Source: Bacteroidaceae bacterium
Lineage (GTDB): Bacteria; Bacteroidota; Bacteroidia; Bacteroidales; Bacteroidaceae
Length of the DNA stretch: 64,000 bases
Assembly (NCBI GenBank): GCA_017461605.1
Contig: JAFTXN010000002.1
Coordinates: 372,001 to 436,000, forward strand
Direction of reading: 5' to 3'
The position numbers and the translations under genes are program-made. Below, one piece after another: positions 36,945 to 50,783 of this stretch. Under the pieces are notes generated by a model, which saw only the letters and a list, made by a program, of their open reading frames with translations, did not search any database and was not told where the DNA came from. How positions within the stretch are numbered: the first letter of the stretch is position 1; each line of letters begins with the position of its first letter.

Positions 36945-38492
36945 TTACCGCTTTTTGGGGCGCAGCGTGATGAGGGGCACCACCATCTCTTCCAACGAAA
37001 CACCACCGTGCTGGAACGTATCCTTATAGTATTGCACGTAGTGGTTGTAGTTGTTGGGATAAGCAAAGAAGCGTGCGCCTGTGGCAAAGATGTAAGCGGT
37101 TGACAGATTGGGAGCCGGCAGCATGAAGCGCTTGGGCTCGCGACATTCGAAAACTTCTTTGGTGTTATAGCCGAGATTCTTCCCGAGTTTGTAGCGCAGA
37201 TTGGTGTTCACATTACGATCGCCCACCACCTTGGTCGGTGTGTCCACACGGATACTGCCATGGTCGGTCGTGATAATGATGTCGTGGTCGAGCGAAGCCA
37301 GTGCGCGAAACAAATTCTTGATGGCAGAATGGCGGAACCACGACTGGGTGATGCTGCGATAGGCGGCCTCGTTGGCAGCCAGCTCACGCACCATACGACT
37401 TTCGGTGCGGGCATGCGATAGCATATCGATGAAGTTGATTACAAGCACATTCAGCGACGATTGTTCAAGCGTTGATATCTGCGAAAGCAAGCGCTCTGCC
37501 GCCATGCTGTCGTTCACTTTGTGGTAGGTGAAACTCTCTTTTCGGCGATAGCGCTCCAAGTGTCTGCGGATGAGCATTTCTTCATTGAGATTCTTACCCT
37601 CATCCTCGTCTTCGTCCACCCACAGTTCCGGATACATCTCACGGATTTTCGATGGCATCAGTCCGGCGAAGATAGCATTACGTGCGTATTGCGTGGCTGT
37701 GGGTAGGATGGAGAAGTACAGATCTTCATCATAATCGAAGTCGTCAGCCAGCTCGGCACTGATGGCACGCCATTGGTCATATCGGAAGTTGTCGAGCACC
37801 AACAAGAACACCTTGCGGCCGGCTGACAGACGGGGAAACACCTGTCGCTTGAACACATCAGGACTCATCATAGGCCTATTGTCTGCAGTCAGCCAATGTT
37901 CATAATTCTTGCGAACGAATTTAGCAAAAGCGGCATTAGCCTCTTCCTTTTGCATCTGCAACATCTCACTCATGGCCCCTTCGGTCTCGCTCAGTTCGAG
38001 TTCCCACCGCACGAGCCGCTTGTAGAGTTCCACCCATTCTTCGGCATTCAGGTTTTCAGAAATCTGCATGCCGATGCGTGAGAAGTCCTGTCGATACCCC
38101 GTCTGTGTTACCTCCGCCCGTATCTCGCGTTCGTGAATGTTCTTCTTCAGTACCAGCAGAATCTGGCTGGGGCGTACCGGTTTGATGAGGTAGTCTGCAA
38201 TTTTCGACCCGATGGCTTGGTCCATGATGTCTTCTTCCTCGTTCTTCGTTACCATCACGACCGGCACATGGGGCTGTATCTCCTTGATGCCCGAAAGGGT
38301 TTCCAGTCCGCTAAGTCCCGGCATATTTTCGTCGAGCAATATCAGGTCAAAACGCTGTGTGCGACACAAGTCCAAGGCATCGTTGCCATTGGATGCCGTC
38401 GTAACAGCATAATCTTTTTTCTCAAGAAAGAGAATATGCGCTTTGAGCAGGTCGATTTCGTCATCCACCCAGAGAAGTCTTCCGTTGGTCAT
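36945..38492 (-). CDS. porX: PorX: response regulator with PglZ-type phosphodiesterase domain
   Basis: The 515-residue protein has a CheY-like receiver domain (residues 1-125; acidic pocket VDDE, phospho-acceptor D54 in LILLDENMPG, conserved K104 in YLIKPVRP). A helical linker follows, then an alkaline phosphatase-fold PglZ domain with FLLVLDNFRYDQWRA and TDHGSIRVDTPTKVVGDRN. This architecture is that of PorX, which with the histidine kinase PorY controls the type IX secretion system in Porphyromonas and relatives. The ATG at 38492 gives MTNGRLLWVDDE; the frame upstream is not conserved. Its presence fits the T9SS cargo genes in the window. Confidence 0.93.
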   Translation of the reverse strand: MTNGRLLWVDDEIDLLKAHILFLEKKDYAVTTASNGNDALDLCRTQRFDLILLDENMPGLSGLETLSGIKEIQPHVPVVMVTKNEEEDIMDQAIGSKIADYLIKPVRPSQILLVLKKNIHEREIRAEVTQTGYRQDFSRIGMQISENLNAEEWVELYKRLVRWELELSETEGAMSEMLQMQKEEANAAFAKFVRKNYEHWLTADNRPMMSPDVFKRQVFPRLSAGRKVFLLVLDNFRYDQWRAISAELADDFDYDEDLYFSILPTATQYARNAIFAGLMPSKIREMYPELWVDEDEDEGKNLNEEMLIRRHLERYRRKESFTYHKVNDSMAAERLLSQISTLEQSSLNVLVINFIDMLSHARTESRMVRELAANEAAYRSITQSWFRHSAIKNLFRALASLDHDIIITTDHGSIRVDTPTKVVGDRNVNTNLRYKLGKNLGYNTKEVFECREPKRFMLPAPNLSTAYIFATGARFFAYPNNYNHYVQYYKDTFQHGGVSLEEMVVPLITLRPKKR

Positions 38493-38515
38493 GGTTTTCC
38501 TATTGCTTTGCGGAA

Positions 38516-38523
38516 CAAAAATA
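38516..38523 (-). promoter_or_regulatory. -7 box (TATTTTTG) for porX
   Basis: TATTTTTG on the minus strand lies 24 bp before the ATG at 38492. Confidence 0.55.
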
Positions 38524-39100
38524 AATGTTTTCCCACTGTTATACCAATCTTGAGACATGAAAAGTGTATTTCTCCCGAAATTTCAAACTCGGCATGGCGA
38601 CTTCATTAAATGCATTCTGTAGTACTATATAATGCACAAAGCCATTTCCGGGGACAATTTCGCGGTTAACGATTCTCAGGTCAGATGTAAACGAAAAGCA
38701 GTTAAGAAATTCTACATATGAGTGTAGAAACTGTAGGCAGAGGTGGACAAAGTTTTTTGGGAAAGTAATGCCAAACTTGTGCAGAATAGAATCAAACCAT
38801 CAAAGAACAACAATATGTACCAAACATCTTCTCTTCTACATCGTTTTGTTATGGAGGGAAATAGGTCTCATAAAACGCTCAGAGTGAACGTCATAGTTGG
38901 TGTACTTGAGTTCTAAGTGATGGCATGTACTAAACTATTCCATTTGAATTATGCGTACCTAAGAGCATGCTGAAAAGAACCTGATTTAACAGTCAGGGCG
39001 CGCGAAATAATAAGAATAGGTGGCTTCATTCAGAGCAACATGCAATGAAAACAAGAAGAGTTCTGAATGTGGATGAGTAAACCTATAGTCTCAAATTCAC
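38524..39100. other. Gene-free left margin of the accessory island
   Basis: About 580 bp with no convincing gene. A 33-codon frame (38815-38916, plus strand) begins ATGTACCAAACA but has no ribosome binding site or recognisable product. A small palindrome TTCTACA-TATGAG-TGTAGAA lies near 38718. No integrase, tRNA or clear attachment site is seen. Confidence 0.45.
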
Positions 39101-39144
39101 AACGAAGAATACCCATTGTTAATCAATGGATTGTTCTTCGTTGA
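39101..39144 (-). terminator. Possible hairpin at the end of the PIF1 helicase gene
   Basis: CAACGAAGAA at 39101-39110 can pair with TTCTTCGTTG near 39134-39143, enclosing a smaller CCATTG-TTAAT-CAATGG stem; the helicase stop codon is inside. No long T tract follows. Confidence 0.35.
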
Positions 39145-41176
39145 GTTCTTGTTTCTTGATTCGTAGAATCAGATAACTGATGGATTTCGGTGCTTTAGAA
39201 CGGCATTCCTTCAACAGAACATCAAAGTTTTCTTCTGATAGGTCTGAGTTGAAGGCTTCTATCAGCTCACTTTCTTTTGGAGAATCAAGCATGACATTAT
39301 GACGCTTCATCAACAAACGTAACGCATGTATGCCTTTATCGTACTTTGGTCGTGCCTCCACCAGCTTACGCATGAGGTCGAGGCCGGGATCTCCAATGTG
39401 CATCTCATTGAGCATGGCAATCATGAAAAGGACCTTTGCGTCAGGTGTTGCCATCTCGAACACATTCGCCAACTGACAGTTCGTTTCGTCAGCTTCTGTG
39501 TAGCGTTCAAGCTTTGCCAATGCACGTGACTTGATGTACAGAGCCTCTGCACATTGATGTCCTTCCAACACCTCACCAATGAGAGCCAAAGCCTCCTCAT
39601 ACTTCTGAGCGTAGAGACTCAGCAAGGCTGCAATGAACTTCGGAGCCCAATGGCTTGAACGGTGAAGACTTTCTGGCACATCCTCTATGGCTCCATAAAG
39701 GTGTTCGTCACACACCAATATGTCCAGAAATCGCTTTGCTTGCTGCATCGCCTCCTTGAAGTCGCCATCCTCAGCCTTCTTTGCTACAAGCATTAGGTAC
39801 TGTTTGGCTGCCTCGTCATAGTCGTTCTGCTGAATCGCACCATAAACAGCCTTTCCACTCTCGATCTCGTTTCCGATTTGCTGCTCGTTGTTGTACTCGC
39901 TTGCATAAGTGAGCACTTCTCGGCTGGTATGGGCATACTGAGGGATGACGTTCTTTGAAAGGTATAGACCTTCCAACGTACGCACACGGCTGAGTGCCAC
40001 ATAGAGTTGCCCCGCAGCAAACATGCCTCGGCTCAGGTCGAGCGAGAGTTTGTCGAAGGTCATGCCCTGGCTTTTGTGTACAGTTATCGCCCATGCCAAC
40101 TTCAGAGGGTACTGCGTGAAGGTGCCTGTCAGTTCCTTCTTCATCTTGCGCTCCTCCTTGTTGTAGTCGTAGCTGTACGATTCCCATGAGCAGCAAGGCA
40201 CAACGTAGGTCTCACCATTGTTGAGTGTGACGCTTATTTCGTCCTTGGTGAGCTTGGTCACCTTTCCGAGCGTACCATTTGCCCAACGCTTTTGCAGGTC
40301 GTTGCGAGTGAACATCACCTGAGCACCGACTTTCAGACGAAGCTTCAACTCCACGGGGAAACGCTTCTCCTCAAAGTTGCCGTCCACTGTACCTTCGTAC
40401 ACGAACTCCTCTGCTTCAATCTCTTCCAGTCGCTGAATGTTGATCTCGTCGGCAGTCTTGTTGATGGATGCCAGTGTGATGACCGCACCATCCGCTTCGC
40501 CTGGAGTTTGTACACGACCATTTAGGTGCATGATATCCTCTGGGGTCACCTTGTTCATGCGCACGTTCTCTAGGATGTGAAGGAAGTGCTCATCATCCTG
40601 ACGGTACACCTTCTGAAACTCAATCTTCACGAGTCGCATGCGCTTGATGACATCCGACTTGTAGAAGAAGAAATCGTCCGTGTGGTACAAGTCCTTCAGC
40701 AGGTCTTTCTCCGGTCCTTGTTTCACCACAGGAGGCAACTGGAACATATCGCCAACAAAGATCATCTGCTTGCCTCCGAATGGCATGTTATTCCTGAGAG
40801 CCTTGCGCATGGTGTAGTCGATGGCATCCATCACATCACATCTTACCATCGACACCTCATCGATGATGATGGTGTCTGCATGGAGAAGGGTGAGGATTCT
40901 TGCCTCGTTCATCTTTCCACAGGTTCCAGGAGTGCAAACCTCCATCGGAAGACCGAAGAAAGAGTGGATTGTGTCACCATCGGCAAGGATGGCAGCCACA
41001 CCTGTTGGTGCAAGGGTGATGAACTGCTTCCCTACCAACTTCTGCACGTTGTGGAGGAAGGTTGTCTTACCGGTACCAGCACGTCCTGTGAGGAAGAAGC
41101 TGGAGTTTGTGTTGGCAACAAGCTCGTATGCAAGCTGCTGCTCGTGGTTCTGTGGGTCTATCTGTGTGTTCTGCAT
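39119..41176 (-). CDS. PIF1-family DNA helicase with long C-terminal extension
   Basis: The 685-residue protein has a superfamily 1B helicase core in residues 1-430: Walker A FFLTGRAGTGKTTFLHNV, a PTGVAAILADGDTIHSFFGL motif, Walker B ADTIIIDEVSMV, QMIFVGDMFQLPPVV, and AWAITVHKSQGMTFDKLSLD followed by LYVALSRVRTLEGLYL. The remaining about 250 residues look helical and TPR-like (CAEALYIKSRALAKLERYTE) and may mediate partner binding. PIF1 helicases unwind DNA-RNA hybrids and stalled forks; stand-alone versions are common in Bacteroidales accessory regions. It follows the paralogue at 41180 by 3 bp and is the last gene of the run. Confidence 0.9.
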   Translation of the reverse strand: MQNTQIDPQNHEQQLAYELVANTNSSFFLTGRAGTGKTTFLHNVQKLVGKQFITLAPTGVAAILADGDTIHSFFGLPMEVCTPGTCGKMNEARILTLLHADTIIIDEVSMVRCDVMDAIDYTMRKALRNNMPFGGKQMIFVGDMFQLPPVVKQGPEKDLLKDLYHTDDFFFYKSDVIKRMRLVKIEFQKVYRQDDEHFLHILENVRMNKVTPEDIMHLNGRVQTPGEADGAVITLASINKTADEINIQRLEEIEAEEFVYEGTVDGNFEEKRFPVELKLRLKVGAQVMFTRNDLQKRWANGTLGKVTKLTKDEISVTLNNGETYVVPCCSWESYSYDYNKEERKMKKELTGTFTQYPLKLAWAITVHKSQGMTFDKLSLDLSRGMFAAGQLYVALSRVRTLEGLYLSKNVIPQYAHTSREVLTYASEYNNEQQIGNEIESGKAVYGAIQQNDYDEAAKQYLMLVAKKAEDGDFKEAMQQAKRFLDILVCDEHLYGAIEDVPESLHRSSHWAPKFIAALLSLYAQKYEEALALIGEVLEGHQCAEALYIKSRALAKLERYTEADETNCQLANVFEMATPDAKVLFMIAMLNEMHIGDPGLDLMRKLVEARPKYDKGIHALRLLMKRHNVMLDSPKESELIEAFNSDLSEENFDVLLKECRSKAPKSISYLILRIKKQELNEEQSID

Positions 41177-41179
41177 GTC

Positions 41180-41686
41180 CTACTTCTGTTCGATTTGTGG
41201 GAGGATTTGGGTGAGACGTGCGTTGAAGTCGCTATCAAGGAAGCTCTTGTAGCAACCTTCAACGATACCTTTGGCTTGTGCTTCAAGTTGTTCCTGTGGC
41301 ATAGATGACCGCTGTGCCTTCAGAACCCCCTCGAAGTAGTTGCGTACCATGGTTTCCGTCTCATGACGGATGAACTCTTCGTTGCGGAATGTCTTGTCGT
41401 AGTCGCGCTTCTGTACGAGCTCCAGCCTTTTACCGTTGAAGGCATAGACTTCGATGCCGTCGATGTAGGTCCAGGTGTGGTAGAGCCCCACCTTTTCCAC
41501 TATGACGATGCGGTCGCAGAATCGTACGCCTTTGTAGTATCGGTGTCCGTTGCCACTTTCGTATTCTTCACAGAGGAACATCTTCTGACCTTCGTCCCAC
41601 ACAGGAACGTGAACTCTTGGATTGCCAAACGTTGGAAGAATCTTGTCGAACAAGTCTTTGTTGATTGCTTTTGTAAGTGATGCCAT
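41180..41686 (-). CDS. Unknown protein, paralogue of the upstream neighbour
   Basis: The 168-residue cytoplasmic protein is not recognised. Its middle, GHRYYKGVRFCDRIVIVEKV and YIDGIEVYAFNGKRLELV, aligns with YYKAIRLSDRLAVYYHIG and FLNGITLFAWNGQKANII in the protein from 41743-42186, so the two are diverged paralogues. The pattern is that of a small beta-rich domain followed by a C-terminal helical part (residues about 105-168). It has no signal peptide or membrane segment. The start is ATG at 41686 and the stop lies 3 bp before the PIF1 helicase start, so the products are probably made together and may act with the helicase. Confidence 0.7.
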   Translation of the reverse strand: MASLTKAINKDLFDKILPTFGNPRVHVPVWDEGQKMFLCEEYESGNGHRYYKGVRFCDRIVIVEKVGLYHTWTYIDGIEVYAFNGKRLELVQKRDYDKTFRNEEFIRHETETMVRNYFEGVLKAQRSSMPQEQLEAQAKGIVEGCYKSFLDSDFNARLTQILPQIEQK

Positions 41687-41742
41687 ATTTTGTCTGTTTT
41701 TGGGTTTGTAGCTTTGGCTAATTGTTCTCGTGCATTTTCGGA

Positions 41743-42186
41743 TTATCGAAGCAACCTCTGCTGGGTTTCCTCGATCATGTTTCTGGAGAAGGCGAGCAGC
41801 TGGCTGTCAGCTATGACGCTTCCCATTGCCTTTGCCTGTCCTGCGAGGAAGTCCTTCAGCATGATGATGCTCTCTTCCTTGGCTGTGCGCTCGTTGAAGC
41901 ATCTCCAGTTGCAGCCGCCCCAGAACTTCTGTGCGATGATGTTCGCCTTCTGACCGTTCCATGCGAAGAGCGTGATGCCGTTCAGGAAGGTGTGAGCGTA
42001 GCCTTCACCTATGTGGTAGTACACGGCAAGTCGGTCAGAGAGGCGTATCGCCTTGTAGTAGGTATTGCCAGCTGCGCTGGTGTAACCAAGGGTGAGATAC
42101 ACGTTCTTCTCCGGATTGTAGGTGAGAGAACTGCCCGAGAGGGCTGGGAGTGCCTTTGAGGCAACGAGTGCGAGTGTTGTGCTCAT
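41743..42186 (-). CDS. Unknown protein, first gene of the helicase run
   Basis: The 147-residue protein has the same central beta-type region as its downstream paralogue (YYKAIRLSDRLAVYYHIGEG and FAWNGQKANII), preceded by SSLTYNPEKNVYLTLGYTS and followed by a helical tail (EESIIMLKDFLAGQAKAMGS). No catalytic motif is seen. It is preceded by a TAACTTTG box at 42287-42294 and by the inverted repeat at 42335-42359. It is probably co-transcribed with the next two genes (gaps 56 and 3 bp). The function is unknown. Confidence 0.7.
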   Translation of the reverse strand: MSTTLALVASKALPALSGSSLTYNPEKNVYLTLGYTSAAGNTYYKAIRLSDRLAVYYHIGEGYAHTFLNGITLFAWNGQKANIIAQKFWGGCNWRCFNERTAKEESIIMLKDFLAGQAKAMGSVIADSQLLAFSRNMIEETQQRLLR

Positions 42187-42286
42187 AGTCGTTTGATTTT
42201 GTTTTTCTGTTCAGCGGAATAGGCCGCCACCTCTTTGTGATAAATAATAATGTATATACAAGACCAACTCTCTCGGAATTGTGATG

Positions 42287-42359
42287 CAAAGTTACAGACC
42301 TTTTATCGTCCTTCTTGAGCATTTCCCAAGTGTATTGGTTCCTCTATATTTGGAACCAA
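42287..42359 (-). promoter_or_regulatory. Promoter and operator module 1
   Basis: The -7 box TAACTTTG (minus strand, 42287-42294) lies 100 bp before the ATG at 42186. An 8-bp perfect inverted repeat, TTGGTTCC-N9-GGAACCAA, spans 42335-42359, with exactly 40 nt between the -7 box and the repeat. The -33 position has no clear TTG, which suits an activator-dependent promoter. Confidence 0.65.
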
Positions 42360-42376
42360 CATACAAGAAGTTTACA

Positions 42377-42493
42377 TTATTTTCTTCTAGCGAAGTAGGC
42401 TGTGATTGCAGTACCAATTGCAGAGCAAATTGCAGCAGCCAATATCCAACGGTCTTTTTCAGTCATAGTCTTTTCAGTTCTCATCGTTTTCAT
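42377..42493 (-). CDS. 38-residue single-span membrane peptide
   Basis: The frame from ATG at 42493 to TAA at 42377 encodes MKTMRTEKTMTEKDR followed by a hydrophobic WILAAAICSAIGTAITAYF segment and the basic end ARRK. The layout is a charged N-terminus, one membrane span of about 18 residues and a positively charged tail. A second possible start is the methionine at codon 10. It lies 74 bp downstream of the -7 box of operator module 2, so it is the first reading frame of that transcript. No homologue is known to me; similar short peptides occur in toxin-antitoxin and defence loci. Confidence 0.55.
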   Translation of the reverse strand: MKTMRTEKTMTEKDRWILAAAICSAIGTAITAYFARRK

Positions 42494-42566
42494 TTGTTCC
42501 TTGTTTTCGTATCCCGCCAACGACTTGCAGCGCCAGACTTCGTGGTAGTTTCGATGTCTGACGCTG

Positions 42567-42638
42567 CAAAGGTATGCACTTTTCTATGTGCGATAAAGGT
42601 TTGTAATTAATACATTGGTTCCTTCCTATTTGGAACCA
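42567..42638 (-). promoter_or_regulatory. Promoter and operator module 2
   Basis: TTTA (42594-42597), 19 nt and TACCTTTG (42567-42574) form a promoter on the minus strand. The inverted repeat TTGGTTCC-N9-GGAACCA spans 42615-42638 (one end mismatch), again exactly 40 nt from the -7 box as in module 1. The spacers also share CTAT(AT)TTT-type sequence next to the right arm (TATTTGGAACCA in both). The site lies 6 bp after the WYL gene stop. Confidence 0.7.
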
Positions 42639-42643
42639 TTCCG

Positions 42644-43729
42644 CTATTTTTTCTTAGGGTATATATCGGATAGTTTGTGTACTCGGTGGGCCATTTTATC
42701 ACGAACACAATCGGGTGAAACGACCTCCAATCCTGCCCCCATCTGTAGTATGCGACCATAAAACTCGTTGTTCGGTTCCACATCAACAGAGAACTCTGCA
42801 TACTCGCCATCTTCATATTGTGCGAATGGTTTAATAACGGCGTAACTCTGATGAAGAGGTTTCGTGTCCATTAACTTATAAATATATAATGAACTCGCGC
42901 GTATAACGATATGCTCTTTCTTGGCATCCTTTACGTGACTTACGCCAACTATATCTTTAAATAACTCATCATAAAAGTGCTTCGGTGATGGCACATATTC
43001 AACTTTTGAACGCTCGCGAGGTTTTGATTGTATTCTGTCAAGAGCAATGTTATAACCGTATTCTGGTTCTTTCCCTTCCGCATGGCCGAACAAGTGCCAT
43101 CTGCCATTATATTCCTTCAGGTAGTGAGGATGGAACATCAACGTGACCTCTTCCTCATCAAAAGGCTTATAGTCAATCTCCAGCACCGTTTTGTTCGTGA
43201 TGGCTTCATACAATGATGGCAAGTACTCTATGTTAGTCAGAATGCGATCAAGACTTGCACTTATCACCTGTTCTCCCTTCTGTCGTTTATCCCTCATATC
43301 CAACAGGTCCTGACAATCCTTGAAGAAGTACTCCAACCATGATTTTGGGAAAAATCCAGCAGAATCCTGACAGAACTTCCAATATTGGCGAAGATTATTG
43401 ATTGCTTTAGCGTTACGCATGTCTGCGAGAGGATCATTGTCCTGTCCTATATAACGAAACTTCTTGTTCTTATTATTGCCCTCCTCTTCAATGCAATCAT
43501 TACCAACCTTCTCGAGAATAGCTTTCTTTACTATACCAACAGTTTTCTTTAATTCGCCATAACCTTCACAATTGGATAAGTTAGCTGGTAGCTCTTCAAT
43601 AGAACATCCCAGCCTCTCTGCCATAATATCAGCATTAGTAACCCATCGGCGGCTCATCAGCAACCGATAGGTTATTATAGCAAATTCTGCTTTATAGCTC
43701 TCGCCATCAAAGAGATTCTTGCGTTGCAT
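42644..43729 (-). CDS. WYL-domain transcriptional regulator
   Basis: The 361-residue protein has an N-terminal winged-helix-like part (SYKAEFAIITYRLLMSRRWV, with a basic recognition segment) and a WYL-type domain at about 170-260 (KTVLEIDYKPFDEEEVTLMF, HPHYLKEYNGRWHLFGHAEG, NIALDRIQSKP), then a WCX-like C-terminal extension. WYL regulators bind nucleic acid or nucleotide ligands and commonly control anti-phage loci, as repressors or activators. The ATG overlaps the stop of the preceding 45-codon frame (TAATG). Two matching inverted repeats directly downstream are the obvious candidate targets. Confidence 0.88.
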   Translation of the reverse strand: MQRKNLFDGESYKAEFAIITYRLLMSRRWVTNADIMAERLGCSIEELPANLSNCEGYGELKKTVGIVKKAILEKVGNDCIEEEGNNKNKKFRYIGQDNDPLADMRNAKAINNLRQYWKFCQDSAGFFPKSWLEYFFKDCQDLLDMRDKRQKGEQVISASLDRILTNIEYLPSLYEAITNKTVLEIDYKPFDEEEVTLMFHPHYLKEYNGRWHLFGHAEGKEPEYGYNIALDRIQSKPRERSKVEYVPSPKHFYDELFKDIVGVSHVKDAKKEHIVIRASSLYIYKLMDTKPLHQSYAVIKPFAQYEDGEYAEFSVDVEPNNEFYGRILQMGAGLEVVSPDCVRDKMAHRVHKLSDIYPKKK

Positions 43730-43866
43730 TAATCTGAGATTCTTACATTTATCGCTTTCTTATATCTAGGGTTGTTAAGTTCCTCTTCTAGTTCAAATAC
43801 GACATCTGCACCATCGTACAAATCTTCCAACTTGTTTTTTATTACATAGTGGAATCCGTTTTCCAT
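43729..43866 (-). CDS. 45-residue cold-shock/OB-like fragment, probably the detached C-terminus of the large NTPase
   Basis: The frame starts at ATG 43866, overlapping the stop of the large NTPase gene (TAATG), and ends in TAA at 43729-43731, overlapping the WYL start (TAATG again). The product (ENGFHYVIKNKLEDLYDGAD, then VVFELEEELNN and YKKAINVRI) reads like the second half of a cold-shock or OB domain and lacks the first strands. One extra A in the A7 tract at 43883-43889 would join the large protein to it without a break (KGVYKKKKNEILMENGFHYV). It may therefore be a separate coupled gene, or part of a frameshifted or recoded larger protein. Confidence 0.6.
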   Translation of the reverse strand: MENGFHYVIKNKLEDLYDGADVVFELEEELNNPRYKKAINVRISD

Positions 43867-46800
43867 TAGAATCTCGTTTTTCTTTTTTTATATACACCTT
43901 TTAATAAAGTGTTGCCTATGCCATCTATATTAGAGCTCTGAATAATTGGATTGCTCGTCTTTTTGTTTGCAGATAGCAACGACAACCTGTTTGTATCTCG
44001 TTCCGATAATTCTATTTTATCTCCAAGTTTATATTTATCAGTGGTTTTAGAGCCAGAGGTTTCATCGTCGTTATCTACTGTTGCACCTTTACCAGTGAGA
44101 TTCATCTGTTTCTTTTCTGAACTATGTATATCTGCGTTGAATTCTTCTTTATAACGATCACGCTCGTCATACAACCCAATGCCTTCGTATCTGAAACCCA
44201 ATTGCCAATAATCTGTATCTCCTATGTTTTGGCGTGTTTTCTTACCTGCACCAAATGACGCCTCTAATCCACAAGGGAGAACTATTGCAACACCACTTCT
44301 TTGTTTTATGTCAGAAATCTGACATTCTACTTTTCTTCGTGAATCACTATTGTCACGAGCGGATATCAGAATTCTTGCATCCTCATTATTTCCAAGATAA
44401 TAATATGCAGTAATTGTTCCACGCTTGTTATACTTGTGAGCAGAATTTATTGCTTTTTCGCGATATTCAAAATACTGACGTTTATCATTGTCGTCAAGCC
44501 CATCTTCTTTGATGGCTGCTACTATGTATTTTGCAGCATAGTAGGACTCTAACATGTAATATGCATTCATCAAAGTAAATGACAAATCCACTCGATCTTG
44601 ACGTTCGCATTTCTCAACACAAAGCTTCCAATGTAGAATTGCTTCTTCAATGGAATAATCAACATCACTATAGAGTCGAAGTTCGTGTAGTTGTTTAAAT
44701 GCCGGAATGCAGTCGTCTTGAATTGCATGTAGCAATACTTTCTCCATGCAATTATAATCTTCTCCTCTAATTAAAGAAAGGGTGTCGGAAAGTTTATTGT
44801 CTTTCGACATATTCTGTTGTACATAGTATATGGTTGACCAATAATATAGTTGAGAAAATCTTACACGATCGGCTTTCGTTTTGGAATGACTCAATGCTTT
44901 TTGGAAATATATTTTACATTGTTCTTTGTCTGCTCCAATGAGTTTAACATGGAAGTTACATAAACGACGATACATCTCTTCATTGCCTTGGTTGTTATCA
45001 GAAGATTTTATCAATTCCGACAACTGCAATATAGTCTTATTGAATCTGTTAACATATTCTGTCCAGGGTTCCTTGTCACAAAAAAGATACTTGGGGTCAT
45101 CAAGGCATATTGCTAAAGCTTCAATACCTTGTTGAATAGTTTGCCCTTCAGTCATGTATCCATATGGGTTCAATGGCGAGTAAAGTTCGCTGGAAGAAAA
45201 AGCTTTAATTGCTTCATCCATCCAACGCTTTACACTAGTTGCCGATTGTTTAGAATCTTCAACATTCTTATCGGCATTTCGCCTGAATACACGTATCATT
45301 CGATTATAAAGAGTGCCCTGCATATGGTAAACCTTATCACTCTTTTCATTGCATCTAGTTGCTTTGTCAATAAGTTCTTGAGCTTTTATAAATGCTGTAT
45401 CATTTTCATTTACATTTTTTTGATTTGAAGTGTATTCGTATAGATACCTTGAATAGTGTGCAAGAAAATAAGGGTTGTCAGGATAGATCTTTATGAGATC
45501 ATTCATTAATTCATTAATCATTCCATAATCCCTAATATCTTGAATAATAAGTGGAAAAGATTTCAGGTAATCTGTAGAGTCATCGAATCTACGGAAATCC
45601 TCCTCTGTTTTTTCCGTAAACAATCTCTGTAATATTTGTTCGTCTTCCGTATTGATTTCGCAAGTAAAAGAAGAACATGTATTAATCAATTTCTTTGAAA
45701 GCTGATAAAGATTAGAAGGAGTTATCCATTTCTGGTCATCTGTGTTGAAATGCGAAGCAAGGATACACTCCCCAAGAACTCTATATCTTGGTCGCCATGA
45801 GTTAGTTGGATGTCCGTTTTCATCTACTTCCACTAAAAGTCGCTTTACCGCTTTTTGCACTTCTGAAGGCCACTTGGATAAAGAGTCCTTGCCGCTCAAT
45901 GTTGTCTTTAGAAGAGAAAGAGACACACTTTTTCCTGTGTACTTGTATACAAAGGATATTAACAAACAGGTGTCTTTCCATTCTTCTGGAAGTCGTTCAA
46001 TCATCTTGTACGCAAAATGTATCATTGCGTACGAATCCTCATTTTTAGAATCTCTTGCCAGTAAAGGATAATCGATTGCAGTGACTTGGTTGAGGTTGTT
46101 CAGATACTCTATCTGGCTGTTAGTTAGAAATCCTTGTTGATAGAACAATTGGTTAAATTCAACTCTTTCTTCTATTCGTAATTTATTCGAAAGAATTGAT
46201 TGTGAAGGAATATTTGTTGTTGGAGTAATTCTGATAAAATAGACTCTATGCTTTTCCTGCTTTTTTAATTCATCACATAAATTTTCATAAGACTCTTCAG
46301 ACAAAACATGACACTCAAATATGACAAGTAATGCACCGTCATAGATAGAAGTAAGTTTTGTCAAAGAATCTAGTAAAAGAGCGGGCTCATGTCTTTTAAT
46401 AAAGATAGGCAAACATTGAAAATTTGAGCTACTTTTACTGTAAACATCAATATCATAAGCTATTTGCCTTAAGAATGTTGTAGCGCCACTTCCAGGATAG
46501 TAATTGAACTGATCTTTGTAGATAGAACGATTACTATTGATTTTTTGTTTCAAACTCTCTAAATAAATACTATAGCCATGTCTCTTGATTGCTTTACCTT
46601 CTTGTATTTCCTTCCATGTGATTTCTGCACCATCATAAAAATCCCAATCATTTTTCCCTCTTATTGAAGTTACATCAACAAATTCTATTCCAGATTCGTA
46701 GAATTTACACATTTCTGAATCTTGAACCTCTGTATGCCTGTTGTTAGAATATAATGTAAATCTCTTTTCTGTACTATTAGCTAAAGGTGAAATTTCGGAA

Positions 46801-48086
46801 GCGCATGACAATAAATCTATGGTCTTAATATCTAGGACATGAATTGTTACACCATAATCTTTTTCTTCTTGTGCTAATTTCCAGACTTCTTGTTGGTCAC
46901 TGTTTTCTGTTAGTATGTAGAAGTGAAATTTTGTTTCAAAATTATCTATGTATGCACTATCATTGTAGAGCATTTCGATTAGTTTTGAGATTTTTTCGAA
47001 ATCGGGATAAACCAAAATGAACGCAAAGTCACTTGCATTGTACTCTTCCGTCTTTTTTATACAATTTGTAATTTTTGAGTTTCTTCTTCGCAACTCGCTA
47101 TTAGTCCTATTTACAATAATTGTTGAGTAATTATTGTTATTACCCTCTGCAAAAAGCCAACTATGTCTATATTTCCCATCTGCAATGTATAAATCGTTGT
47201 CAGAACTCTGCAACATTACTTCTGGAAAAAATGCTTTTTCCTCATTTGAGAAAGTTGCATACATGCCATCTGCCGTGTTTTTGTTATAATCAACAATTAA
47301 AGACCATGGTATGTTAAAGAATTGTCTAAAGTCTTTAGCTGCAAATGAGTGATAATTATCAGGAAGAACCAAAACCCCCTTTAACACATTTTCTTTAATA
47401 TCTGAAAAGATTTCAGTCATTCTATTTTTCTCTTTTGTAGGAAATGTATCTAATTCTGCTATTGATTCCAAAGTTCTTGTTTCTGGCAACCCTAAATCGT
47501 TATTGTCCGAAAAACTTTCATACAGTTTCTCTGTTTCTAGTGAAATAAAAGGATATCCATGGAGCCTGTCAAATAATTGTACAATTTGACGATAGGCACT
47601 TAGAGTTGTATTTTCAAGATCCAAGGCGTTTAAATTACCATGCGGAGTATAAGAAGTGTCACTATAATATACAGAAAGGTTGTCATAAGTTTTTGTAATA
47701 CTTTCAATATCTTTTTGTATACTCTGATGAGTTGCTTGCTGAGTTTGAATAATCGGATATAATGTGTGATACAATATGGGTATTGTCTTCTTAATTTTCG
47801 CAGTACCAGATATTGGTAAATGTGTGGTTTTTGTATAAATCCATTTATATTTACCATTCAGGTCCTTTCCCCATTCTTTTCTGCCCTCTAACACCTCCAA
47901 TGCGTCATTTGGCACCATATCGAACAACAATATAGGGGAGATGTTTTCTATTGCACCACGCAAGTCTCCACCAAGAGCATCTTTATAGTTCTTGGATATA
48001 ATGTTTTGGCGTACTTTAGACATGTATTCTCTGAATTTTGCATATCTTTCAGTACATTCCTCTTGTATTGATCTTGTTCTTGCCAT
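43866..48086 (-). CDS. Giant STAND-type NTPase with TPR-like region, SAMD9-like
   Basis: The 1406-residue protein has no signal peptide or membrane segments. Residues 1-480 form an unassigned alpha/beta region that may include a Sir2-like part (DFAFILVYPDFEKISKLIE). A conserved lead-in NDWDFYDGAEITWKEI precedes a P-loop YYPGSGATTFLRQIAYD at about 529-545, and a Walker B-like ALLVIFECHV lies at about 585-594. A long helical TPR-like stretch fills about 830-1260 (for example CVEKCERQDRVDLSFTLMNA). The order NTPase-TPR-OB, the GSGATT P-loop and the FYxG lead-in recall SAMD9-like proteins, predicted STAND NTPases with bacterial members proposed to act in immunity; this is from memory and unverified. 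The stop falls inside an apparent C-terminal OB-type domain. Confidence 0.65.
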   Translation of the reverse strand: MARTRSIQEECTERYAKFREYMSKVRQNIISKNYKDALGGDLRGAIENISPILLFDMVPNDALEVLEGRKEWGKDLNGKYKWIYTKTTHLPISGTAKIKKTIPILYHTLYPIIQTQQATHQSIQKDIESITKTYDNLSVYYSDTSYTPHGNLNALDLENTTLSAYRQIVQLFDRLHGYPFISLETEKLYESFSDNNDLGLPETRTLESIAELDTFPTKEKNRMTEIFSDIKENVLKGVLVLPDNYHSFAAKDFRQFFNIPWSLIVDYNKNTADGMYATFSNEEKAFFPEVMLQSSDNDLYIADGKYRHSWLFAEGNNNNYSTIIVNRTNSELRRRNSKITNCIKKTEEYNASDFAFILVYPDFEKISKLIEMLYNDSAYIDNFETKFHFYILTENSDQQEVWKLAQEEKDYGVTIHVLDIKTIDLLSCASEISPLANSTEKRFTLYSNNRHTEVQDSEMCKFYESGIEFVDVTSIRGKNDWDFYDGAEITWKEIQEGKAIKRHGYSIYLESLKQKINSNRSIYKDQFNYYPGSGATTFLRQIAYDIDVYSKSSSNFQCLPIFIKRHEPALLLDSLTKLTSIYDGALLVIFECHVLSEESYENLCDELKKQEKHRVYFIRITPTTNIPSQSILSNKLRIEERVEFNQLFYQQGFLTNSQIEYLNNLNQVTAIDYPLLARDSKNEDSYAMIHFAYKMIERLPEEWKDTCLLISFVYKYTGKSVSLSLLKTTLSGKDSLSKWPSEVQKAVKRLLVEVDENGHPTNSWRPRYRVLGECILASHFNTDDQKWITPSNLYQLSKKLINTCSSFTCEINTEDEQILQRLFTEKTEEDFRRFDDSTDYLKSFPLIIQDIRDYGMINELMNDLIKIYPDNPYFLAHYSRYLYEYTSNQKNVNENDTAFIKAQELIDKATRCNEKSDKVYHMQGTLYNRMIRVFRRNADKNVEDSKQSATSVKRWMDEAIKAFSSSELYSPLNPYGYMTEGQTIQQGIEALAICLDDPKYLFCDKEPWTEYVNRFNKTILQLSELIKSSDNNQGNEEMYRRLCNFHVKLIGADKEQCKIYFQKALSHSKTKADRVRFSQLYYWSTIYYVQQNMSKDNKLSDTLSLIRGEDYNCMEKVLLHAIQDDCIPAFKQLHELRLYSDVDYSIEEAILHWKLCVEKCERQDRVDLSFTLMNAYYMLESYYAAKYIVAAIKEDGLDDNDKRQYFEYREKAINSAHKYNKRGTITAYYYLGNNEDARILISARDNSDSRRKVECQISDIKQRSGVAIVLPCGLEASFGAGKKTRQNIGDTDYWQLGFRYEGIGLYDERDRYKEEFNADIHSSEKKQMNLTGKGATVDNDDETSGSKTTDKYKLGDKIELSERDTNRLSLLSANKKTSNPIIQSSNIDGIGNTLLKGVYKKRKTRF

Positions 48087-48092
48087 ATTGAT

Positions 48093-48298
48093 TTACCAAT
48101 TATTTCTATCTACCAATAGTACTCTAATATTAATCTTTAGCAGCTCCAAATCTTTGCCAACGTCTGCAAATCGGGTTGTGTGGTGTTTGTATAATACTTG
48201 GAAACCGTTGCGAATATCTTGCCTAATTGACCGGCTAGCCAAACGCCTGTTTTTGCCAGCATCAGCCAATGTTCCTTAATTCGATTCAGATTTTCCAT
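48093..48298 (-). pseudogene. XRE-family HTH regulator with a 1-nt frameshift
   Basis: From ATG 48298 the sequence encodes an XRE helix-turn-helix: KTGVWLAGQLGKIFATVSKY and NTTQPDLQTLAK are typical of the short Bacteroidales type. After LAK the frame gives IWSC and a stop at 48137. Reading on in the -1 frame gives DLELLKINIRVLLVDRNNW and a stop at 48093-48095, which restores the usual helices 4 and 5 and ends 6 bp before the large NTPase ATG. One missing A in a short A run (GCAAAG) explains this. The gene is either truncated in the cell or affected by a sequencing indel. Its position suggests that it regulated the NTPase operon. Confidence 0.75.
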
Positions 48299-48320
48299 AC
48301 ATATTTCTTAATGTTTGATG

Positions 48321-48328
48321 CAAAGATA
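48321..48328 (-). promoter_or_regulatory. -7 box (TATCTTTG) of the XRE-NTPase operon
   Basis: TATCTTTG on the minus strand lies 23 bp before the XRE ATG; no TTG is found at the usual spacing. Confidence 0.55.
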
Positions 48329-48491
48329 CAAAAATACATGGAAATACTACCGCGAACAAAATGTGCAGAGTCAACCAGCAATTGCAACATTACGAAATCA
48401 TTATTTCTTTATCTCAATGATGTGTAATTTAGTAGCCTATTTTAAAGTTTCAAGATAAAAGCGGCAATATATTAAAGTAATAATGGATTCT

Positions 48492-49494
48492 ATGACTAAA
48501 AATTAACATTAGGTTCCTCAATCATATTTGAAATGTTTTTCTCCGAACAATTATTCTATTGGAGTATTCCGTGTAGAAGATGGAAGATGCTTTGAACACT
48601 CGCCAATAAAAGGACAAGCTAAAAAAGAATGGTTTTATGATAGAGATAACGAAATCGAAAATTCTTTTTCTGAAATAGAGGGTCTATTTGCTCAAAACAG
48701 ACAATCTATTGCCAAGTATCCAAAAGCCAAACTTTCACAAGACCAATGGGAGATTCTATATCAGGATATGGTGGTACAGCTAATGAGGACTCCTCATATG
48801 GCTAATAAGGTCAATCCTATAATAAACGCTGAAGCCCATCGAATATGGGAGCACGATAGTAATTTGACAATGAGAGAGCTAGCTGATTCTTTTATTGCTA
48901 AAAAGCCAAATGTTATTATTGATGTAATGCATATTGTATGTAAGCACCCTTATATTCTCCTTAATCTTAAATGGCGACTTCTTATTAATAATACTAATCT
49001 TCCATTTATAATCTCAGACAATCCCGTGTGTCTGTACAATCAATTTGCAGAGAAACGTCATTGTAGCTTATGTGGGCTTGCATTATCAGGTTTGCAAGTT
49101 TTTTACCCATTGACACCTCATTTGGGAATGTTTTATTTTGATGGGGACATTTATAAATGTAGATCAGTAAAAAGACATTTTGTTGAGATTAGCTAGGAAG
49201 ATGTATTCCATTTAAACAAACTAACAGCTCTTTAATGCTACAGCTAATATATTTTACAATACGCAAATTACCGATTTAAAAACCATCCAAAACATTGTGG
49301 CAACTACTAAAAGTTATCGTACAAGCACATATATGGATACTGAAATACCAATAGCGCCAAACTCTAGTTATGTAATAATACAACATATCATGCCCTTGTG
49401 TAAACTACGCCTCTCTTTTATCAAGGAGTTGGATAAGGCCAAAATAGTATCCACCATAGGTTATCGGAAGAATGTTATATTTGATAATGATTGA
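48492..49494 (+). pseudogene. DUF4238 protein gene with three nonsense changes and a frameshift
   Basis: From ATG 48492 the sequence reads MTKN-stop-H-stop-VPQSYLKCFSPNN, matching the DUF4238 beginning (QHYVPQ-type) with TAA at 48504 where Gln and TAG at 48510 where Tyr are expected. The long open stretch 48528-49196 carries family-like FRVEDGRCFEHSPIKGQAKK and FIISDNPVCLYNQF. A TAG at 49194 then interrupts, followed in frame by EDVFHLNKLTAL. One extra T near 49230 shifts the frame; the new frame continues ATANIFYNTQITDLKT to the stop at 49492-49494. The gene is therefore decayed. DUF4238 proteins are of unknown function and are often found in accessory regions. Confidence 0.82.
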
Positions 49495-49540
49495 TATTAC
49501 ATCGTATACACCATTCTCCTAAGAGTTTTTGGTCGTATTA

Positions 49541-49634
49541 TCTGTCACTCTGTCACTTTTATGCCGTAAGCAAAAATAAATCAAGGGGTTGTGAGGTGAC
49601 AGATGTGGTGACAGATGGGTGGTACATCTGTCAC
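49541..49634. repeat. Five copies of TCTGTCAC in both orientations, with a hairpin
   Basis: TCTGTCAC occurs at 49541-49548 and 49549-49556, its complement GTGACAGA at 49596-49603 and 49608-49615, and TCTGTCAC again at 49627-49634. The last two form a 10-bp perfect stem (49608-49617 with 49625-49634) followed by CTATTTTTT on the plus strand, which could terminate plus-strand transcription. The cluster marks the right edge of the island, directly after the glycosyltransferase stop. Confidence 0.7.
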
Positions 49635-49635
49635 T

Positions 49636-50766
49636 CTATTTTTTATCAGTGGTGTAGGGCTTATGTTTTTTTGAGTTCCAAAAGTCAAGATATTCTTTGG
49701 CTACTTTGATATGGTCGTGGTGACGCTCTACGTATTGTCGGCTTTCGGCGGAAAGGCGTGCGAGATTTTCCGGATGCATCACGAGTTTTTCCAATTGCAT
49801 ATAAACATCGTCCTCGTTGGGAAGTACGTTGATGATGGGGCGCAGCTCGGATTCGCCCAAAATGTCATAGTTCTCGGGTTCGCCACCTCCCACGACTATC
49901 AGCCCTTGTGCCATGGCTTGAAGGGCATTCATGGCCGGGGTGTATGAATAGAGCTGATCCAAGATGACGTGGCTGGAGTCCATCATTTGGCAATAGGTGG
50001 CAAAGGGTACGGACTCGGCTTTCTCTATCAATACGCGGTCGGGGTAGTGTGCTTGCAGGCGTAGCAATGCTCGCAACATGATGTCGGTACCCTTGTATTC
50101 GTTGCGATGCTTCTGTATGCCGATAAAGAATCTCACCCGTCCGTCGTTGCAGCTTCGCACTTGTCCGGGAATGGAGCGCACATCAATGGGGAAGGGGATG
50201 AATTTTGTCTTCTCGGGATATACCGGACGGTAGCAGGCATCGTATTCGTAGAGACCGCTCACGATGCCGTCACAATCATTGGCGATGTGCAGGTTGAGTT
50301 TCCCCTTGGGGCCATTCAGCCAGTCGGCTATTTCGCGGTCGTTGTCTGCATTGTGGCGGATCTGATGGCCGATGTTGAAATCTGAATATCGAAAGGTCTG
50401 TCCGTCGAGTCCGCATTTCACCCAATAGTAGTCCATGCCAAATGCTCCCATGAACACTTTACCGTTGTGTCGTCGCAGGTAGTGATAGATGGGCCACAGT
50501 CGCTCAGCTTTCAGACGCAGAAAGACGGGATTGATGATTTGCACCACGTCAAATCCGCGCAGCCGAGGCAAGGCTCGCAACAGGCGGAGCAGGAATGCGG
50601 CGGTGTCTTTGGCACACGACGAAGTGCGGTGTAAGGAAATGTCGCGGGGATAGTTTTTCCAACCATCTCCGTCGGATGCCACCACCACTTCATGACCGTG
50701 GTGTCGCAAGCCCTCGGCCAGTGTCCAGTGCACGTTGCTGTATTCGCCCAATAGGAGTATTCTCAT
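49636..50766 (-). CDS. Glycosyltransferase (GT-B fold, family 4-like)
   Basis: The 376-residue protein has a GT-B layout: N-terminal MRILLLGEYSNVHWTLAEGL with GHEVVVASDG, a central VRFFIGIQKHRNEYKGTDIM, and a C-terminal PAMNALQAMAQGLIVVGGGE with a donor-site glutamate (PENYDILGESELRPI). It most likely transfers an activated sugar in surface polysaccharide or glycoprotein synthesis; the acceptor is unknown. The ATG at 50766 lies only 9 nt from a TACCTTTG box, so the leader would be very short. Confidence 0.82.
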   Translation of the reverse strand: MRILLLGEYSNVHWTLAEGLRHHGHEVVVASDGDGWKNYPRDISLHRTSSCAKDTAAFLLRLLRALPRLRGFDVVQIINPVFLRLKAERLWPIYHYLRRHNGKVFMGAFGMDYYWVKCGLDGQTFRYSDFNIGHQIRHNADNDREIADWLNGPKGKLNLHIANDCDGIVSGLYEYDACYRPVYPEKTKFIPFPIDVRSIPGQVRSCNDGRVRFFIGIQKHRNEYKGTDIMLRALLRLQAHYPDRVLIEKAESVPFATYCQMMDSSHVILDQLYSYTPAMNALQAMAQGLIVVGGGEPENYDILGESELRPIINVLPNEDDVYMQLEKLVMHPENLARLSAESRQYVERHHDHIKVAKEYLDFWNSKKHKPYTTDKK

Positions 50767-50775
50767 ATCAAGGAA

Positions 50776-50783
50776 CAAAGGTA
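50776..50783 (-). promoter_or_regulatory. -7 box (TACCTTTG) of the glycosyltransferase gene
   Basis: The box ends 9 nt before the ATG at 50766. The position of its -33 element is occupied by the terminator of the upstream S8 protease gene. Confidence 0.5.

Follow-up and report, generated by a model that had tools for sequence, protein, structure and literature searches.

The closest described relatives of the element reported here belong to the SAMD9 family, whose core comprises an AlbA_2 domain, a SIR2-like domain, a P-loop NTPase with the motif GG[TS] (Gly for Lys) and an upstream His, tetratricopeptide repeats (TPR) and an OB fold resembling cold-shock domains (Mekhedov et al. 2017, PMC5445408). 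AlbA_2 has been lost in some members, and for the bacterial proteins, many of which carry kinase domains, signalling roles have been predicted (PMC5445408). SAMD9 itself is a tRNA endoribonuclease that can be activated by poxviruses (PMC13245274), and PaAvs5 is reported to have a fold similar to that of SAMD9 (PMC12931631). The accessible part of Kaur et al. (PMC8195603) names neither nSTAND5 nor SAMD9, and among the papers listed in literature searches none put a homologue of SAMD9 from bacteria to an experimental test. In addition, WYL transcriptional regulators have been linked to defence (PMC9122601, PMC9122588, PMC9122589), with 48% of those of the BrxR family being co-localised with known defence systems (PMC9122601). 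Here we describe a locus at positions 39119-48298 of a 64,000-nt stretch (the window, whose numbering is used throughout) of contig JAFTXN010000002.1, from a Bacteroidaceae genome of 2.06 Mb in 10 contigs that is 81% complete. One of its genes encodes a STAND protein of 1406 amino acids (aa), referred to below as the giant.

We found that the segment 42644-48298 is probably an acquired defence-type operon, the main product of which would be a divergent SAMD9-type STAND protein. We favour this reading because the DNA is foreign in composition, the giant has collinear SAMD9-type homology, the XRE family to which the first gene belongs is tied to defence genes, and the operon includes a WYL regulator. 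A defence role is likely, judging from context and homology. The initial annotation of the window had proposed an anti-phage-type locus extending to a helicase and two paralogues; for the part with the giant and the WYL gene, a defence-type operon in acquired DNA is indeed the most likely explanation, but the helicase and paralogues do not belong to it. The features of the operon are as follows.

48320-48328, minus strand, putative -7 box of the XRE-giant-OB-WYL unit, TATCTTTGC, of the pattern TANNTTTGC
48137-48298, minus strand, XRE frame, 53 aa, truncated
43866-48086, minus strand, giant, predicted SAMD9-type STAND protein, 1406 aa, a single unbroken frame
43729-43866, minus strand, OB fragment, 45 aa
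42644-43729, minus strand, WYL-WCX transcriptional regulator, 361 aa, its start overlapping the stop of the OB frame (PF13280, E 7.9e-8; PF25583, E 3.7e-7)

The giant protein and the SAMD9 family

Among Pfam families, only nSTAND_NTPase5 matched the giant with any strength (PF25199, E 4.5e-6 with the whole protein and 1.4e-7 on the segment, below the cut-off). A link to SAMD9 was provided by a protein of 1212 aa from a genome of the same phylum (G653; L167:5825-9460, minus strand), which turned up twice, in matches to the Pfam model (E 2.0e-7) and to the giant (E 0.0026). This G653 protein has AlbA_2 (E 2.7e-15), nSTAND_NTPase5 (E 2.9e-6, below the cut-off), a weak TPR match and a P-loop, HLPGSGGST, without the Lys, and it matched six distinct solved SAMD9 sequences through its NTPase (best E 3.3e-4); its SIR2-like and OB pieces matched SAMD9 in the same order but scored -0.2 and -1.8 bits alone. 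BLASTP aligned it with the giant over 875 residues (19% identity, E 5e-8), and the whole-protein score was 123, compared with a maximum of 59 in 100 shuffles. Specifically, the NTPase of the giant scored 94 against the G653 protein (shuffle maximum 57) and 60 against the SAMD9 stretch that the G653 protein matches (z 6.8; best of 500 shuffles 52). A tree of 12 nSTAND domains, in which most other forks were weak, paired the giant with the G653 protein (94/94), and the P-loop Lys was present in all ten other rows. The parts of the giant, including the segment LGFRYEGIGLYD, are listed below.

47367-48086, minus strand, N-terminal ~240 residues, a domain of no recognised family in the position of the AlbA_2 of the G653 protein
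46677-47366, minus strand, SIR2-like position, residues 241-470, collinear with the G653 protein in the 875-residue alignment
46167-46655, minus strand, nSTAND NTPase, residues 478-640, P-loop PGSGATT, in which the Walker A lysine is missing
44142-45539, minus strand, TPR-like region, with the first of the C-terminal OB-like segments (LGFRYEGIGLYD)

Compared with the SAMD9 family (PMC5445408), the giant has the same order of a SIR2-like position, a Lys-less P-loop NTPase, a putative TPR-like region and putative C-terminal OB-like segments. Ahead of the P-loop it also has a DFYxG...W motif, which the SAMD9 stretch shares, and it is collinear with an AlbA_2-bearing relative, core homology from the SIR2-like part to the TPR being found and carried mainly by the NTPase. 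Differences from the family lie in the P-loop, which reads GAT (Ala) where the family has GG[TS] and the G653 protein GGS (PMC5445408), in the lack of a detectable AlbA_2, and in a second OB domain that is apparently split into another frame. The P-loop context, NYYPGSG, has Tyr for the conserved His, and the pattern H..PG is absent. For residues 1-225 there was a single Pfam match (E 0.21), no AlbA_2 and no PDB match at E<=10, and a score against the AlbA_2 of the G653 protein of 35 (shuffle maximum 44). The sirtuin motifs GAGxS and TTNxD are absent from the SIR2-like position. Avs5 (AVAST type 5), which likewise is a STAND protein and has a SIR2 position and repeats at the C-terminus, carries both GAGxS and TTNxD as well as nSTAND3, whereas the giant has neither motif and matches nSTAND_NTPase5 (PMC12931631).

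By its sequence, we classify the giant as a divergent STAND protein of the SAMD9 type, a claim carried by the NTPase and the overall collinearity, the assignment of the other domains following from their order only. The relationship of a STAND-like giant to SAMD9, raised in the initial annotation, is supported. Since the giant lacks the Lys but has GAT, carries Tyr for His and has no AlbA_2, we use the term SAMD9-type for it and do not assign it to the family.

Foreign operon and host-like cassette

The DNA of 42644-48298, with the XRE frame, the giant, the OB fragment and the WYL gene, is foreign and AT-rich. The GC content and that at third codon positions (GC3) were 0.344 and 0.289 for the giant, 0.333 and 0.348 for the OB fragment, 0.413 and 0.425 for the WYL gene and 0.432 and 0.500 for the XRE frame, compared with 0.535 +/- 0.024 and 0.631 +/- 0.045 for 21 other genes of the window; the small hydrophobic open reading frame (ORF) downstream has a GC content of 0.403. 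In contrast, the values for the helicase (0.496 and 0.602), paralogue 2 (0.491 and 0.609) and paralogue 1 (0.547 and 0.716) were host-like, so that the AT-richness initially ascribed to the whole locus holds for the giant, OB, WYL, XRE and small frames but not for these three genes. The frames downstream of the WYL gene are as follows.

42377-42520, minus strand, small hydrophobic ORF, 38-47 aa, one hydrophobic stretch
41743-42186, minus strand, paralogue 1
41180-41686, minus strand, paralogue 2
39119-41176, minus strand, PIF1/Dda-type helicase (PIF1, E 2.9e-33; Dda-like phrog_325, E 8.6e-78)

We conclude that paralogue 1, paralogue 2 and the helicase (39119-42186) are a separate cassette outside the giant's operon, because they have host composition and a -7-like box of their own and because they occur in a congener (G021) in which neither the giant nor the WYL gene was matched. 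In that congener (contig C260), the three genes are in identical order among different neighbours, the helicase being 50% and paralogue 2 36% identical; a search of the genome, which is 86% complete, found no giant at E<=0.1 and no WYL match at E<=1e-8. Matches to paralogue 2 at E<=1e-5 were confined to the source genome (G000) and the congener among 41 genomes. The cassette is thus a recurrent arrangement (39119-42186 of the window and L055:3227-6454) of two paralogous proteins of ~145-170 aa, without a Pfam family, and a PIF1/Dda-type helicase, the C-terminal part of which is TPR-like.

The pattern TANNTTTGC, a Bacteroidota -7-like box, has 23 copies in the window compared with 9.04 expected, a count reached in 0/100 shuffles, and one copy each precedes the XRE frame, the small ORF and paralogue 1. 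The two latter boxes, at 42566-42574 and 42286-42294, lie in the gap of 457 bp between the WYL gene (42644) and paralogue 1 (42186), which otherwise contains only the small ORF and two palindromes. These palindromes (42336-42358 and 42616-42638) bracket the small ORF, have exact 7-bp arms (TGGTTCC/GGAACCA) and are the sole exact matches in the window. Among 176 loci, the palindrome was present only in five stretches, all of the same genome.

The locus was originally presented as nine tightly packed reading frames forming one system. We counted eight minus-strand frames from 39119 to 48298 that resemble genes or gene remnants; the TAATG overlaps at 43866 and 43729 and the spacing of 3 bp from paralogue 2 to the helicase are present as described, but packing is not tight throughout, given the 457-bp gap. 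That the frames form one system, with the helicase and paralogues as accessory effectors, is hardly credible. All of them share a strand at short distances, and in a sister species (G019), in which both flanks align (84.7% at PorX and 80.3% from 49590 on), the 29 kb fetched contain nothing similar to 38496-49589, either between the aligned flanks or next to them. However, GC3 is 0.60-0.72 in the cassette and 0.29-0.50 in the giant's unit, the -7-like boxes are separate, and the congener has the cassette while the giant and the WYL gene were not found there; on these grounds, a single nine-gene system, already disfavoured, was rejected. The flanks of the sister species are rearranged and therefore do not form a clean empty site. 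The whole stretch 38496-49589 is accessory, and its absence between the aligned flanks of the sister species also counts in favour of an acquired operon.

The XRE family and its defence neighbours

Searches with the XRE frame gave 46 matches including itself, in 28 of 61 genomes (the source genome included). Of the 45 non-self matches, we used 31 (E<=4.7e-7) and dropped 14 weaker ones; these homologues were 43-58% identical to the window XRE over about residues 1-50, and among 11 viewed, ten extend to roughly 65-76 residues, the eleventh being a fusion with a methylase-like protein. One locus (L158) has no downstream gene before the contig end, leaving 30 loci, in each of which a single protein, the longest encoded by the first up to four same-strand downstream genes, was scanned with PADLOC models at E<=1e-10. 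A match was found in 25/30 loci (9/10, 9/10 and 7/10), with models for type I, II, IIG and III restriction-modification, BrxA, ThsB, Tmn, HEC-01A and PDC-S14. In a first control set, drawn from ten loci fetched for other reasons, 5/20 genes had a match (Fisher p 7e-5 compared with 25/30), namely three PorX genes (with PglZ models), the helicase of the congener and one gene at L092. A second control set from the same ten loci, consisting of ten coding-like genes with PorX and the cassette excluded and sharing five genes with the first set, gave 0/10. Thus, in relatives this small XRE family heads restriction-modification, BREX, Thoeris-type and other defence genes.

The family, found in the genus and its order (L132-L135, L138 and L140-L165), may serve as a marker for unknown defence operons in the genus. 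The five misses were L165, L153, L159, L162 and L140; in the last four, the scanned gene, having no PADLOC model at E<=1e-10, is a candidate undescribed defence gene.

A WYL gene directly follows the XRE gene in 4/31 loci (L132-L135), so that the two regulator genes on either side of the giant are consistent with a recurring XRE-WYL pair. The WYL regulator resembles BrxR and CapW in having WYL and WCX domains and in lying beside a candidate defence gene (PMC9122601, PMC9122588, PMC9122589), the likeness being drawn from the domains, and differs in being the last gene of its unit and in overlapping the OB frame. By description, the XRE frame may be likened to RptR, a small repressor strongly tied to restriction-modification loci (type I islands), the conservation of which is described for Gammaproteobacteria (PMC12255303).

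A signalling role other than defence for a SAMD9-like giant would agree with the signalling roles predicted for the bacterial SAMD9 proteins, many with kinase domains (PMC5445408), but is quite unlikely, as the XRE family and the WYL regulator point to defence and the giant is sporadic and lies in foreign DNA. For a defence operon, we envisage that the XRE and WYL regulators would keep expression low, that the TPR array and the C-terminal OB-like segment or segments might sense a product of phage infection, that the Lys-less NTPase would act as a nucleotide-binding, possibly oligomerising hub and not as a fast ATPase, and that the N-terminal ~240 residues, in the slot of the AlbA_2 tRNA nuclease of SAMD9, could be a toxic effector arresting the infected cell. 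The identity of the giant is read from its sequence, and its function is proposed by analogy with SAMD9 (PMC13245274) and Avs5 (PMC12931631). Tentatively, the giant may represent a SAMD9-lineage STAND receptor that acts against phages in bacteria, with a new effector domain in the slot of the tRNA nuclease and with the Lys-less hub as the conserved part. Were the N-terminal domain indeed a different one, the effector would seem to be interchangeable around a hub that lacks the customary ATPase lysine, and SAMD9-type immunity in bacteria, if the proposal is true, would be an exchangeable-effector system, as in Avs. In an operon with a regulator of a defence-fronting family, the giant is a concrete candidate for testing an anti-phage role of the bacterial SAMD9 lineage.

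Decay and distribution of the operon

Several points weigh against a defence-type operon encoding a SAMD9-type protein. First, apart from the NTPase, the parts of the giant scored inside the shuffled range against the G653 protein, namely 36 for the SIR2-like part (shuffle mean 30, maximum 51), 31 for residues 640-900 (maximum 48), 60 for the TPR part (maximum 68; Pfam TPR_17, E 0.11) and 30 for the OB segment LGFRYEG (maximum 40), the last also scoring 23 against the SAMD9 stretch (maximum 39) and being significant in neither comparison alone. A Lys-bearing nSTAND protein (L174) scored about equally against the SAMD9 stretch (58, z 8.2), and the P-loop His and GG[TS] described for the SAMD9 family are replaced in the giant by Tyr and GAT (PMC5445408). 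Second, no further copy of the giant was found in sets of 61 relatives and 58 genus, 393 order, 395 class and 395 phylum genomes, which include the source genome and overlap in their draws, at most two candidates per genome being scored in the order, class and phylum sets. PADLOC-DB 2.0.0 likewise contained no matching model (0 families at E<=1 with the giant), an outcome that agrees with the initial statement that no named system has this composition. Third, some PADLOC matches in the XRE loci were to broad helicase, methylase or AlbA-type models (those of L132, L143, L145 and L151 being broad helicase or AlbA-type), and six of the 20 genes in the first control set look antisense, without which the control becomes 5/14 (p 0.004). 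Fourth, the XRE gene is frameshifted, the OB fragment does not lie in the frame of the giant and the adjacent DUF4238 gene is dead.

The last point suggests that this copy of the operon may be decaying, with its XRE gene broken and its second OB domain seemingly split. The window XRE is cut by a frameshift after residue 50 and stops after residue 53, the expected continuation lying in another frame. The OB fragment looks like an OB domain of the cold-shock type from which the N-terminal half is missing (PF00313 positions 34-64 of 66, E 0.068, below the cut-off) and is in the -1 frame relative to the giant, the two frames meeting near a run of seven A at about 43883-43889. A second OB domain appears to have been split by a frameshift, and the break could be a genuine lesion, an error of assembly or programmed slippage. 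That the operon is only the relic, dead or dying, of a defence island, with the frame of the giant still looking intact while the regulator and the OB domain are already lost, would accord with the frameshifted XRE, the two early stops in the DUF4238 gene, the OB domain apparently split near the A7 run and the lack of a relative of the giant in the 58 genus-search genomes. Nevertheless, we give such a remnant a real but minor chance, since the giant runs for 1406 codons without a stop in DNA of 34% GC and the WYL gene is uninterrupted and overlapping. Several compensating frameshifts in the XRE gene were also considered and are not firm, as the homologues align without gaps over residues 1-50 and only the cut after residue 50 stands.

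Searches of other collections gave no further relatives of the giant. The giant and its pieces had no match in plasmids, phages, viral contigs or genome contigs, scans of contigs detecting close relatives only, and PDB searches with the giant, its pieces and alignment A1 gave nothing convincing. Neither alignment A1 nor the G653 protein without AlbA_2 matched viral contigs; at full length, the G653 protein had no phage match and matched plasmid proteins only through its AlbA_2 part, the remainder being without a significant match. Three weak matches to the giant were discarded as noise, namely a stretch in G234 that holds other genes, a repetitive protein of 2193 aa in G006 and a frame of 73 aa with a stop in G449. 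In the vicinity of the gene for the G653 protein are a DUF7689 gene and two genes for which Pfam gave no convincing match.

Upstream, a remnant outside the count of the operon stands back to back with it.

48483-49196, plus strand, DUF4238 pseudogene (PF14022, E 4.3e-22)

This gene has two in-frame stops inside its first ten codons, its GC and GC3 are 0.345 and 0.269, and it is probably a dead neighbour from the same island as the giant's operon; the PADLOC model DUF4238-Pers matched it only at E 0.015. The flanking genes are presumably a PorX-like gene (36945-38558) and a glycosyltransferase-like gene (49636-50778). PorX-like regulators, in the window and at L081, L085 and L086, give hits to the PglZ models of PADLOC (in the three relatives, best E 3e-20 to 2e-24) and could be mistaken for BREX genes.

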